Virus record (IMG/VR): IMGVR_UViG_3300042319_001613
Span: 1 to 24,686 of that record
Source of the DNA: a virus
Reading direction: 5' to 3' (one strand)
DNA: 24,686 nt
Shown: positions 21,960 through 24,662 of the stretch, one piece after another
How the letters are laid out: every line of letters starts with the position of its first letter
Numbering within the stretch: position 1 is the stretch's first letter
Made by a program: the position numbers and the translations under genes
Notes under the pieces: generated by a model
What the model was told of the DNA's origin: nothing
Seen by the model: only the letters and a program-made list of their open reading frames with translations
Database searches by the model: none

Positions 21960-22247
21960 TTACTGGCTTTTCAGAGTGGCAAGGGCTGCGCGGGCTGCTT
22001 GTACGCATTCCTCTGTCTCTGGATCCCAGTTGCCGCATTCGCCGCAATTCACCAGACCGGTGTAACGGTCAAGCATCCCTGTCAGCGCTTTACTCAGCAA
22101 CGCAAGCAGCTCATCACGCTTGGCATCCGCCTTCAGCGCAAGCTCTGCCGCAGCGTGGCGGGCGTCCCGGTGGCCCAGCATGTAAAAGTCCATGCCGGCC
22201 GGCACTTGGCGCTCTCGCAAGTTCATGATCTGTCCGTGCAAGTCCAT
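21960..22247 (-). CDS. Cassette 1 protein, phage Ea22-like (95 aa)
   Basis: The ATG at 22247 has GGAGAG ten bases upstream, so it starts 40 bases left of attC1, inside the cassette body. The product is helical and Ala/Leu-rich (GHRDARHAAAELALKADAKR). It then has a possible zinc knuckle, NCGECGNWDPETEECVQAAR, resembling the C-terminus of small Ea22-type accessory proteins of temperate phages. The function is unknown. The gene runs opposite to the attC polarity. Its stop (21960) is about ten bases from the presumed left end of the array. Confidence 0.7.
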   Translation of the reverse strand: MDLHGQIMNLRERQVPAGMDFYMLGHRDARHAAAELALKADAKRDELLALLSKALTGMLDRYTGLVNCGECGNWDPETEECVQAARAALATLKSQ

Positions 22248-22286: not shown

Positions 22287-22348
22287 GGCTAACCCTTCAC
22301 TGAGCCCCGGACCCGCTAAAGCGGGCCGGGTTAGTTCGGCCGTTAGGC
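22287..22348 (+). other. attC: attC1 recombination site (62 bp)
   Basis: The cores are GGCTAAC (22287-22293) and GTTAGGC (22342-22348), with inner arms GGACCCGCT and AGCGGGCC forming a short stem and a small loop. The left core departs from the RYYYAAC consensus at its second base. No start codon lies in this short site. Confidence 0.8.
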
Positions 22349-22352
22349 GCCA

Positions 22353-22616
22353 TCAGTATTCGACGCGCTCAATGGTGAACTCGTGTTCGCAGTGCTCGCA
22401 CGTCACCTCCCAGCCTTCGAGCTTGTCCCAGTCGTTCGTGAAGATGCGGCGCGCAATGTCGTGCTCGCAGTCGTGCTGTGCGCGGGCCAGGTCGTTGCTC
22501 TCCCCGCACTTCGGGCAGTCAACATGCAGGCTCCAGTCAAGCAGCGCGGTCGGCCTCTTCGCTCCGTCACCAGCGCCTAACCCTTCGCTCAAGCGCCGAC
22601 CGCAAACGGCGGTCAC
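22353..22616 (-). CDS. Cassette 2 zinc-ribbon protein
   Basis: The frame is open from inside attC2. I choose GTG at 22616, in the attC terminal loop, by analogy with cassettes 3, 4 and 6; this gives 87 residues. Another GTG at 22652 and a CTG near 22545 (AGAGG upstream) are possible. The N-terminal part (VTAVCGRRLSEGLG) is attC-encoded. The folded part has VDCPKCGES and VTCEHCEHEF, two CxxC pairs ~40 residues apart that would form a zinc ribbon. It may bind nucleic acid or protein. The stop is four bases from attC1. Confidence 0.6.
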   Translation of the reverse strand: MTAVCGRRLSEGLGAGDGAKRPTALLDWSLHVDCPKCGESNDLARAQHDCEHDIARRIFTNDWDKLEGWEVTCEHCEHEFTIERVEY

Positions 22617-22659
22617 GTTGTCTCTGTGGCTTGCGTCGGCCGTAGCTCCCACGTTAGGC
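22575..22659 (+). other. attC: attC2 recombination site (85 bp)
   Basis: The cores are GCCTAAC (22575-22581) and GTTAGGC (22653-22659), with left arm CGCTCAAGCGCCGAC and right arm GTCGGCCGTAGCTCC. The loop includes a possible GTG start for the reversed gene of cassette 2. Confidence 0.85.
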
Positions 22660-22998
22660 CTCTTCAGTCACGATCATTTGACGCCCGAAACAACCATCCA
22701 CCTCGTAGCAGTTGACAAGGTATGTGCCCGCGTATGTTGGATTGCTGCTCCATTTGGGCGGCCCTATCTTTGCCCAATCAACGCCAGCCACGATAACAGC
22801 CGCTTCGCGCGGAGTGTCGGCCGACACAATCCGGGTGTTCTGCGTTGCCTCTCCAATCCAATCAACAGCGAACCTTTTATGGTTTCTGTGGGCAAACCTT
22901 TCTGCCCTTCGGCGCATAGCATCGTCTGCTAGCCTTTCGCGGTCGAGGCCTAACCCCTCGCTCAAGCCGAGCACTGCCGGCGTACTTTCTGTGGTCAT
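22654..22998 (-). CDS. Cassette 3 hypothetical protein, start inside attC3
   Basis: The ATG at 22998 lies in the terminal loop of attC3 with AGGAG (23004-23008) five bases upstream, a strong ribosome site. The TAA stop is the complement of bases 22654-22656, the TTA of the attC2 core G/TTAGGC. The gene thus fills its cassette from core to loop. The 114-residue product starts MTTESTPAVLGLSEGLGLDR, in which LSEGLG comes from the attC left arm. A charged helix (DDAMRRRAERFAHRNHKR) and a mixed alpha/beta C-terminus (REAAVIVAGVDWAKIG, YLVNCYEVDGCFGRQ) follow. I recognise no family. Confidence 0.78.
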   Translation of the reverse strand: MTTESTPAVLGLSEGLGLDRERLADDAMRRRAERFAHRNHKRFAVDWIGEATQNTRIVSADTPREAAVIVAGVDWAKIGPPKWSSNPTYAGTYLVNCYEVDGCFGRQMIVTEEA

Positions 22999-23043
22999 TT
23001 CAACTCCTGTGCCGGCAGTGCCGGCTTAGCTCAAACGTTAGGC
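22948..23043 (+). other. attC: attC3 recombination site (96 bp) containing a start codon and ribosome site
   Basis: The cores are GCCTAAC (22948-22954) and GTTAGGC (23037-23043). The left arm GCTCAAGCCG has one more C than the complement of the right arm (GCTAAGCCG). The inner stem CACTGCCGGC / GCCGGCAGTG extends the hairpin. The loop (about 22983-23010) carries the Shine-Dalgarno sequence and ATG of the reversed cassette-3 gene. Confidence 0.9.
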
Positions 23044-23337
23044 CCCGGCCGGCTTGGTCAGCCCGCCACTGCCGCCGCAATCGTGGCAAGGGTCGCCATC
23101 GTCCAGATCGCCAGTGCCGCTGCAAGTTCTGCACGGGTGCAGCGGGCGCACGCCAGCGCGCGTCATCTTGGCGGGCGTCGTGTAGGTATCGCGGTAATCG
23201 CTCGTCGCCTTGTCGCTTTGCAGCCATTCGTCGCTGACAACAAGCCCCCGGTCGTCCATCCAGTGCGTGGGCCTAACCCCCTCGCTCAGCCCCCGACCTG
23301 CGTCGGCGTTGGGGCTTTGGTTCGCTTCGTGTTTCAT
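23038..23337 (-). CDS. Cassette 4 DnaJ-type cysteine-motif protein, start inside attC4
   Basis: The ATG at 23337 is in the terminal loop of attC4, with AAGGAGGC seven to eight bases upstream. The TAA stop is the complement of the attC3 core TTA (23038-23040). The 99-residue product contains the attC-encoded GRGLSEGVRP near its N-terminus. Its centre is polar (DKATSDYRDTYTTPAKMTRA). The C-terminal part has CRTCSGTGDL and PCHDCGGSGG, two CxxCxGxG-type repeats like those in the zinc-binding centre of DnaJ. It has no J domain, so it is probably a small zinc protein rather than a chaperone. Confidence 0.78.
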   Translation of the reverse strand: MKHEANQSPNADAGRGLSEGVRPTHWMDDRGLVVSDEWLQSDKATSDYRDTYTTPAKMTRAGVRPLHPCRTCSGTGDLDDGDPCHDCGGSGGLTKPAGA

Positions 23338-23376
23338 GGTCTCGCCTCCTTGTCGGGGTTAGCTCGCACGTTAGGC
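23271..23376 (+). other. attC: attC4 recombination site (106 bp) containing a start codon and ribosome site
   Basis: The cores are GCCTAAC (23271-23277) and GTTAGGC (23370-23376). The left arm CGCTCAGCCCCCGAC again has an extra C compared with the right arm (GCTAACCCCGAC in complement). The large loop holds the Shine-Dalgarno sequence and ATG of the reversed cassette-4 gene. Confidence 0.88.
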
Positions 23377-23378
23377 CA

Positions 23379-23717
23379 CTACAGCAGCCCGTAGGCGTGC
23401 GGCTGCATCGGTGTGGGGCCGTACTCTTCCGGCCCGTCGCCGCCATCCTCTACGCGCTCTTCATCTTCGTCGGGCGGCGGCGGCTCCATGCCGTGCGGGC
23501 AGTGGCGCACGCAGTCAGCGTGTCCTGGCCCGCCCGGCTCGCCGTAGTCGTACTCGCCAGTTTTCAGGTCCACGTACACAGCCTGCGAGCAGTTGTCCCA
23601 ATCCAGCGGGCAGCGTCTGCCGCCCTCGATTTGCCATAGCCTCGCGCCGTGGCTCACCTGGCCTTCAGTGCCGGCCAGTTGCATCGCGGCGGTTATCAGG
23701 TCGTTCAGTGTTTGCAT
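23379..23717 (-). CDS. Cassette 5 hypothetical protein (112 aa)
   Basis: The ATG at 23717, preceded by AGAGGA, lies 30 bases left of attC5, so the whole gene is in the cassette body. The product has a helical start (MQTLNDLITAAMQLAGTEGQ). Then come four cysteines (RRCPLDWDNCSQ, ADCVRHCPHG), possibly metal-binding, and an acidic proline-rich tail (PPPPDEDEERVEDGGD). It stops three bases from the attC4 core. I recognise no family. Like its neighbours it runs opposite to the attC polarity. Confidence 0.72.
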   Translation of the reverse strand: MQTLNDLITAAMQLAGTEGQVSHGARLWQIEGGRRCPLDWDNCSQAVYVDLKTGEYDYGEPGGPGHADCVRHCPHGMEPPPPDEDEERVEDGGDGPEEYGPTPMQPHAYGLL

Positions 23718-23746
23718 GCCTTGGTCCTCTCGCTTCGGAAACAGTG

Positions 23747-23821
23747 GCCTAACTGGTCGCTCAAGGGCGACCTCCTACGGGCCTGCGGCCCTACGTCGGC
23801 GCCTTAGCTCCAACGTTAGGC
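23747..23821 (+). other. attC: attC5 recombination site (75 bp)
   Basis: The cores are GCCTAAC (23747-23753) and GTTAGGC (23815-23821), with left arm CGCTCAAGGGCG against right arm CGCCTTAGC. The inner stem GGGCC/GGCCC closes a small loop with no start codon. The reversed cassette-6 gene reads through the right core and stops inside this site (23791-23793). Confidence 0.87.
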
Positions 23822-24138
23822 CCGCATACCCGCTCGATGAAGCGCAGGCCCATGCCGAGGGGTACACGATCACCGTAAGCGCTAAACAGCGTCGGTTCAA
23901 AAAGCACGGTGCGCTGCGTGATCTCTGCAATCGTCAGCGTCACGCATACCGTCGCGCCATTACGCAGGATGTGCCACGTTTCGCCGGGTTTCGGTGTCAC
24001 GCATCTATCAACGTTGGTGCATAGGCCAGGTGTCGGGCAGGCAAGGCACGGGCTCACCACCAACGGGCCTAACCCCTCGCTCAAGCGCGACCCATCGCGG
24101 TGGGTGGCGTCGTCTGCACTCGGTAGCTTCTCAGTCAT
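23791..24138 (-). CDS. Cassette 6 hypothetical protein, start inside attC6, stop inside attC5
   Basis: The ATG at 24138 lies in the loop of attC6, with AAAGGAAG four bases upstream. The 115-residue product begins MTEKLPSADDATHRDGSRLS, followed by the attC-encoded LSEGLG. It then has a cysteine-containing segment (VSPCLACPTPGLCTNVDRCV) and a small beta-rich domain (KPGETWHILRNGATVCVTLT, RTVLFEPTLFSAYGDRVPLG). The last ~10 residues (GPNVGAKAPT) are encoded by the right arm of attC5, so both ends of this protein come from recombination-site DNA. The frame is open upstream to 24363, but that part belongs to a different gene. I recognise no family. Confidence 0.75.
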   Translation of the reverse strand: MTEKLPSADDATHRDGSRLSEGLGPLVVSPCLACPTPGLCTNVDRCVTPKPGETWHILRNGATVCVTLTIAEITQRTVLFEPTLFSAYGDRVPLGMGLRFIERVCGPNVGAKAPT

Positions 24139-24185
24139 CGGTCTTCCTTTGCGCCGCGCTGGGCGGCTTAGCTCGAACGTTAGGG
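24067..24185 (+). other. attC: attC6 recombination site (119 bp) containing a start codon and ribosome site
   Basis: The cores are GCCTAAC (24067-24073) and GTTAGGG (24179-24185); the last base departs from consensus. The left arm GCTCAAGCGCGACCC carries the extra C compared with the complement of the right arm (GCTAAGCCGCCC). The long loop contains the Shine-Dalgarno sequence and ATG of the cassette-6 gene. Confidence 0.85.
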
Positions 24186-24363
24186 CGCACGCGGCGGGCG
24201 CAGCTTGTGCGCCTTCAGCAGCGCGGCTTCGATCAACTCCGCAGGCGTCTCGGGCTGCTCTGCCATCCACTGCACTAGCCATGTGGGCAGGCGTAGCGGG
24301 ACGTTGACGCGGCGCAGGCCGGGTGGTGCGGGGGGGCGCCCCCCCTTTGCTTTTGTCGTTCAT
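24180..24363 (-). pseudogene. Cassette 7 small DNA-binding-like gene with a +1 frameshift in a G tract
   Basis: The ATG at 24363 starts MNDKSKGG. Seven G residues (complement of 24339-24345) then shift the frame. With six Gs the frame would continue as RPPAPPGLRRVNVPLRLPTW, then LVQWMAEQPETPAELIEAAL and LKAHKLRPPRAP, stopping at the TAA formed by the attC6 core (24180-24182). That would be a ~60-residue protein with a strand-helix-helix pattern, like ribbon-helix-helix antitoxins or repressors. A palindromic run (seven G, CG, seven C in complement) makes slippage or a sequencing error plausible. It overlaps the upstream gene by ATGA. Confidence 0.6.
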
Positions 24364-24662
24364 GCTTCAATCACGCAGCAATCGACGCGACCGTCTGCAT
24401 GCACTCGATGGCACCACACACCGGGGAAGCGGCCATAAACCTGCGCCTTGCAGCCAAGCACCACGTAGGCCGGCTTGCCTTGCTTTTGCGCGACAGCTTG
24501 CGCGCGCAAAGCGGACTTGACGAAAGGCGCGTGGATCGTGGTCACTGTCCAGGCAGCAACAGCGCACCGCTCGCGCTCTGCGGCCACGCGCGCATCTGCC
24601 CACGCCTGCAAACGATGGGCTGCCAGTTCATCAGGCAACTCGTCGCGGATGTATTGCGGCAT
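24360..24662 (-). CDS. Cassette 7 hypothetical protein, possibly extending past the right edge
   Basis: This is a 100-residue product from ATG 24662 (GGAG three bases upstream). The frame has no stop before the window edge, so a start further right is possible. The N-terminal half is helical and acidic (PDELAAHRLQAWADARVAAE, then RERCA), as in many small phage accessory proteins. The C-terminal half is strand-rich with cysteines (YVVLGCKAQVYGRFPGVWCH, RVDCCVIEA). Its stop overlaps the ATG of the frameshifted 24180-24363 gene, so cassette 7 carries two coupled genes. I recognise no family. Confidence 0.65.
   Translation of the reverse strand: MPQYIRDELPDELAAHRLQAWADARVAAERERCAVAAWTVTTIHAPFVKSALRAQAVAQKQGKPAYVVLGCKAQVYGRFPGVWCHRVHADGRVDCCVIEA

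Follow-up and report, generated by a model that had tools for sequence, protein, structure and literature searches.

Can the gene of an integron cassette run against the polarity of its own attC site and take its start codon from within that site? Integron cassettes are generally regarded as promoterless, aligned with attC and read from Pc. An apparent departure from this scheme lies near the right end of the sequence analysed here (henceforth the window, a stretch of 24,686 bases that is a fragment of an IMG/VR virus record), where a consensus scan identified six attC sites, all of plus polarity, and where an earlier note had described cassette genes on the minus strand. The replication genes of the window are N4-like and comprise a primase (phrog_2135), a single-strand binding protein (phrog_743) and an exonuclease (phrog_2139); a tail fibre gene is present as well. 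No tyrosine integrase was found in this 24.7-kb record, itself a fragment, and intI is thus absent beside its array. With at least two clustered attC sites (here six) and no tyrosine integrase in the record, the array classes as a CALIN. A sister contig, L111, continues past the end of the window. DNA similarity searches returned no match among isolated phages and only two 50-bp matches among plasmids, Rfam gave no match at the gathering threshold, and the N4-type primase had no match in 50 related records, in a weak search that returned no match anywhere. The related viral contigs are metagenomic, and phage genes were checked in some of them. The features of the array are as follows.

21960-22247, minus strand: reversed gene left of attC 1, 95 aa, ATG 22247 outside attC 1
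22287-22348, plus strand: attC 1, 62 bp, a degenerate site that departs from the consensus at 8 positions (consensus scan)
22353-22616, minus strand: reversed cassette 2 gene for a zinc-ribbon-like protein; its GTG start is weak
22575-22659, plus strand: attC 2, 85 bp, loop without Shine-Dalgarno sequence (SD), GTG 22616 only
22654-22998, minus strand: reversed gene of cassette 3, 114 aa, TAA stop on the attC 2 core
22948-23043, plus strand: attC 3, 96 bp, loop holding the SD and ATG of gene 3
23004-23008, minus strand: SD of gene 3, AGGAG, from the sequence
23038-23337, minus strand: reversed cassette 4 gene of 99 aa with a DnaJ-type zinc motif (CxxCxG), ending on the attC 3 core
23271-23376, plus strand: attC 4, 106 bp, holding the start signals of gene 4 (SD, ATG); R''-L'' spacer longer by one C (CCCCC)
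23345-23351, minus strand: SD of gene 4, AAGGAGG, from the sequence
23379-23717, minus strand: reversed gene of cassette 5, 112 aa, ATG 23717 just outside attC 5, SD at 23725-23731
23747-23821, plus strand: attC 5, 75 bp, short loop with no start within
23791-24138, minus strand: reversed cassette 6 gene of 115 aa, ending within attC 5 at 23791, off the core
24067-24185, plus strand: attC 6, 119 bp, holding the SD and ATG of gene 6
24145-24149, minus strand: SD of gene 6, AAGGA, from the sequence
24186-24548, minus strand: body of cassette 7, 84-97% homologous to cassette bodies of several other viral contigs

The strict cores RYYYAAC and GTTRRRY (complementary R'' and R') are matched by attC 2 to attC 5, while those of attC 1 and attC 6 are degenerate. 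The inner arms L'' and L' read GCTCAAGC versus GCTTAGC in attC 3 and attC 6, and are variant in attC 4 and attC 5. The 95-aa gene left of attC 1 has no convincing family match, and for cassette 4 there is no protein match among isolated phages. By reading of the sequence, a G/C run at about 24329-24345 seems to shift the frame of cassette 7. Separately, attC 5 (23747-23821) is 98.6% identical to a site in L104 across the site only, both flanks being different.

The earlier note had placed the starts of genes 3, 4 and 6 in the large terminal loop of their own attC, and indeed each ATG (22998, 23337 and 24138) lies inside its site behind a well-spaced AGGAG, AAGGAGG or AAGGA. The GTG at 22616 that it had offered as a possible equivalent start of cassette 2 is in frame within attC, but since it has no SD the start is weak; in the sister phage L111 the body of cassette 2 carries both SD and ATG. 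The stops of cassettes 3 and 4 (ORFs ending at 22654 and 23038) are the exact complement of TTA in the core G/TTAGGC. As a rule for every cassette, a stop on the core proved too strong: among 43 testable cases, 19 stop exactly on the core TTA and 11 more close to it or just inside, so that the feature is frequent without being universal. The start within the loop is likewise one of two forms, the second occurring at short attC sites, where the start lies mostly outside R'' and has its own SD. Start positions are accordingly bimodal, mostly 15-48 nt outside R'' or else 46-76 nt within the site.

The assignment of plus polarity to attC and minus orientation to the genes held on each line of evidence. 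The extra C sits in the left arm (GCTCAAGC, versus GCTTAGC on the right), cassette borders fall at R', and of 26 attC sites near intI in related records, 25 have the standard sense. The segment 22652-23045, made up of body 3 and attC 3, recurs at 99.5% identity in L064 and L072 (records G002 and G003), where the neighbours of the shared cassette differ on both sides and identity stops at the R' cores. That this sharing is cut at R' cores supports both plus polarity and recent movement, and other contig pairs at least 99% identical likewise break at R'. Cassette 3 has the properties of a mobile cassette, that is, a unit of body and attC bordered by R', and from such shared units we infer that the cassettes move. 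The usual orientation of the gene with attC polarity, which is not strictly defining for cassettes, is absent here. As judged from the sequence, polarity and borders are those of an ordinary cassette (the unit being the body with its right-hand attC, cut in G/TTAGGC), and only the gene is reversed.

A major question was whether this arrangement extends beyond one phage. Viral and bacterial attC sites were fetched with patterns requiring no start codon, and we counted ORFs of at least 50 aa with an SD (at least 5) and ATG in or beside the site. At 181 viral sites with flanks, such an ORF was reversed in 76 cases and forward in two; at 177 chromosomal (bacterial) sites of the same type, from a scan that required long loops, none was reversed and nine were forward, and 44 sites near chromosomal intI gave none and five, respectively. 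Because contigs share loop sequences, the viral sites are partly non-independent, hence a second count over unique long viral loops: 51 of 121 hold a reversed SD (at least 5) with ATG, against two forward and against a mean of 3.06 reversed in shuffled loops (maximum 8 in 200 shuffles). Reversed starts thus exceed chance. A start with SD of at least 5 is found on neither strand at 104 of the 181 viral sites, and 35 have none even at SD of at least 4. When only the strand of the longest ORF in GC-rich bodies was scored, a count that ignores starts inside attC, 119 bodies were reversed and 77 classical. A generic detector with strict attC criteria lacked sensitivity. The observation of inverted cassettes in the window is therefore real and part of a wide pattern, and the class in which attC would act as a translation-initiation region, proposed for the window, appears on this survey to reach far past it. 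In L040, a contig of a Rubrivivax MAG that is possibly a prophage or phage contig, a reversed frame of 287 aa accompanies an attC of viral type.

Purifying selection on the reversed frames, which the earlier note had put forward as a check, is evident: across homologues these frames are conserved and under purifying selection, with dN/dS mostly 0.12-0.6 in comparisons with measurable dS and, summed over pairs, one stop in 2381 codons. The highest value, 0.87, comes from one 48-codon pair that includes the leader. In a six-frame comparison the reversed frame of window cassette 4 had an omega of 0.11 and that of cassette 5, compared with L153, an omega of 0.16, both without stops; two further pairs gave 0.10 and 0.06, and another a moderate 0.31. 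The clear pairs carry this result, two short pairs being uninformative. A rival plus-strand frame was sought in the same comparisons, and in the clear pairs every plus frame has stops or a higher omega; those plus frames that do have a low omega in the cassette 4 and 5 comparisons contain stops. As for content, 75 proteins of reversed cassettes were compared with known families: N6/N4 DNA methylases are matched by three of them, an HNH endonuclease, an RNA ligase and the Acb2/Tad1 hairpin domain by one each, and most are without a known family.

Integron integrases scoring above the TIGR02249 cut-off are encoded in four of the 50 related viral records. A wider scan of viral contigs yielded 120 integrase relatives, and 80 of them were retained. 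A tree of 97 integrases built with FastTree places 34 viral members in a single clade (support 0.998) that neighbours 28 chromosomal Burkholderiales integrases (0.901), and all 12 tips with detected reversed arrays fall in this viral-only clade. Within 3.5 kb on the 5' side of intI, SD-ATG ORFs running with (towards) intI outnumber those running the other way by 62 to 7 in the viral clade, compared with 4 to 30 in the chromosomes. The same count gives 69 to 4 in other viral contigs, which we treat as secondary evidence because some duplicate clade integrases and some may lack attC arrays. Among isolated phages no integrase of this clade came to light, the best match being below 60% identity. 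Two of the related records deserve mention as phage contigs with both an integron integrase and reversed cassettes, G027 (L166/L167) and G045 (L163/L164). Both also hold tape-measure and tail-fibre genes, G045 in addition a major head protein, and a DNA methyltransferase gene adjoins the G045 array. In a further virus, Rctr41k (L323), an integrase 44% identical to the phage-clade IntI lies among co-directional genes, including methyltransferase-like ones.

Based on these findings, we consider it very probable that the window holds a phage-resident integron array whose genes are inverted relative to attC, with attC doubling as an initiation region and N-terminal leader, and the interpretation given in the earlier note is supported. 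By sequence, each gene opens either within the attC that belongs to it, in the large terminal loop, or close beyond R'', and its end often falls on or near the core before it. A leftward phage transcript would read the whole array like an operon. Such an mRNA would share its sequence with the attC bottom strand and could form the hairpin of that strand, in whose apical loop SD and AUG would tend to stay unpaired. RNA folds predicted for 43 sites fit initiation from this loop (mean unpaired probability 0.58 for the SD and 0.66 for the AUG, compared with 0.35 for the whole site). As to the interference between attC folding and translation that the earlier note considered possible, the folds show no more than this tendency of SD and AUG to be unpaired. 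The bottom-strand hairpin of attC 3 is clear, and most related sites also fold in this way with RNA parameters; under DNA parameters, other folds are preferred by the bottom strands of attC 4 and attC 5. Translation of the hairpin's 3' arm, made up of L'' and R'', would give a leader peptide reading ..LSEGLG.. or ..LERGVRP.. according to frame. Two core frames are used, 36 and 25 times, and the third, which contains TAG, is not used at all. In attC 4 (23271-23376) and in L074 (6755-6857), an extra spacer C brings a VRP body into the frame of the LSEG leader, an apparent frame correction seen in two cases only. Since the R' crossover falls outside the gene, gain or loss of a cassette would spare its neighbours. 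The cassettes would be moved by an integron integrase from the host or from related phages, and a viral integrase clade accompanies such arrays.

Two readings would remove the phenomenon altogether. Long plus ORFs do cross the array and GC-rich DNA opens many frames, so the reversed ORFs could be chance frames, with the true genes on the plus strand; the reversed frame nevertheless has the lowest omega and no stops in the clear cases, strong SDs lie almost solely on the reversed strand, and on these grounds we rejected plus-strand genes as hardly credible. Nor do we see much in the idea that the hairpins are ordinary intergenic or regulatory repeats of phages that resemble attC by convergence. 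It would suit their location at the 5' ends of phage genes, but cores, arms and extra base match the attC of chromosomal integrons, integron integrases adjoin such arrays, and the detector finds no site in shuffled sequence. Chance hairpins were also considered and discarded, and convergence is very unlikely.

A subtler alternative keeps the integron and turns its polarity round: crossover would occur at the left core, genes would have the ordinary orientation, and the start would be borrowed from the neighbour's attC. It draws on changes at left cores. Near-identical L111 is without attC 2 and body 3 (22575-22967), the breakpoint lies inside GCCTAACCC of the left core, and the deletion sets body 2 behind the strong SD-ATG of attC 3. 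More left-core changes separate L064 from L086, L003 from L103 and L109 from L144, and the leader MTTESTPAVLGLSEGLG is joined to three bodies, consistent with left-core exchange, while conversely one body occurs with different leaders. (Apparent events in L078/L123 and L108/L114 lie at contig ends and were discarded.) Against reversed polarity stand the extra base in the left arm, the cassette 3 common to several phages with both ends at right cores, the exchanges at 99% identity or above that break at the right core, and the standard sense of attC relative to intI; we regard it as improbable. With the inverted array retained as the preferred reading, left-core crossovers also occur and join one leader to different bodies. 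These exchanges concern shuffling only, and we are inclined to ascribe them to homologous or annealing recombination of the phage at the 20-bp R''-L'' arm, an origin compatible with the main explanation and slightly favoured over IntI. Genes for a Sak4-like annealing protein and for a RuvC-like resolvase are present in the window phage, and the arms of attC 2 and attC 3 agree at 19 of 20 bases; on the other side, few events are resolved, and the best-resolved breakpoint lies within the 9 bp of the arm that belong to the core, which is what a site-specific event would give. Cassette 2 of L111, placed behind a strong SD-ATG, is in its own right a natural experiment on leader use.

Phage genomes carrying CALINs and integrons are already known (Qi et al., 2023, PMC9892861) and share with the window attC arrays, sometimes with intI. 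As far as the part of that source used here goes, its arrays are typical, and no mention of inverted genes or of starts inside attC was found there. In one of its examples, the Shewanella M16-3 record, the cassettes diverge from intI as in ordinary integrons. In phage TJE1 the attC sites could not be located. The chromosomal integrons of Burkholderiales share the attC consensus, the attC polarity relative to intI and related integrases, but their genes follow attC polarity and run away from intI. In the reverse integron of Treponema, intI is transcribed towards attI (PMC3607928, PMC4909258) and the cassette genes point the same way as intI, as they do here; by contrast, in the related records that bear intI, the array lies on its 5' side, with cassette genes that run against attC. 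Recombination sites with translation signals are also known: attI1 contains ORF-11, and short ORFs occur in attC (review: PMC8876359). These ORFs share a core-supplied stop codon with our sites, but they run in the sense direction and help the next gene, whereas the signals described here lie on the opposite strand and give the cassette gene its own start and N-terminus. The open-access literature yielded no description of inverted cassettes whose genes start within attC, subscription papers and preprints falling mostly outside the search, and novelty is claimed provisionally.

A broader reading, on which we are evenly divided, is that these arrays form a distinct phage integron lineage with its own integrase clade, which would have evolved inverted cassettes. 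Their attC would combine the roles of recombination site, ribosome-binding site and exchangeable N-terminal exon, and recombination at either core could swap entire genes or leaders alone. Phages would turn the usual cassette scheme round, with a viral integrase clade, and one palindrome must serve single-strand recombination, mRNA folding and coding together. Leader swapping may be a route to new cassette genes, which bears on the question of cassette origin, and the arrays open tests of how phages gather small accessory genes.
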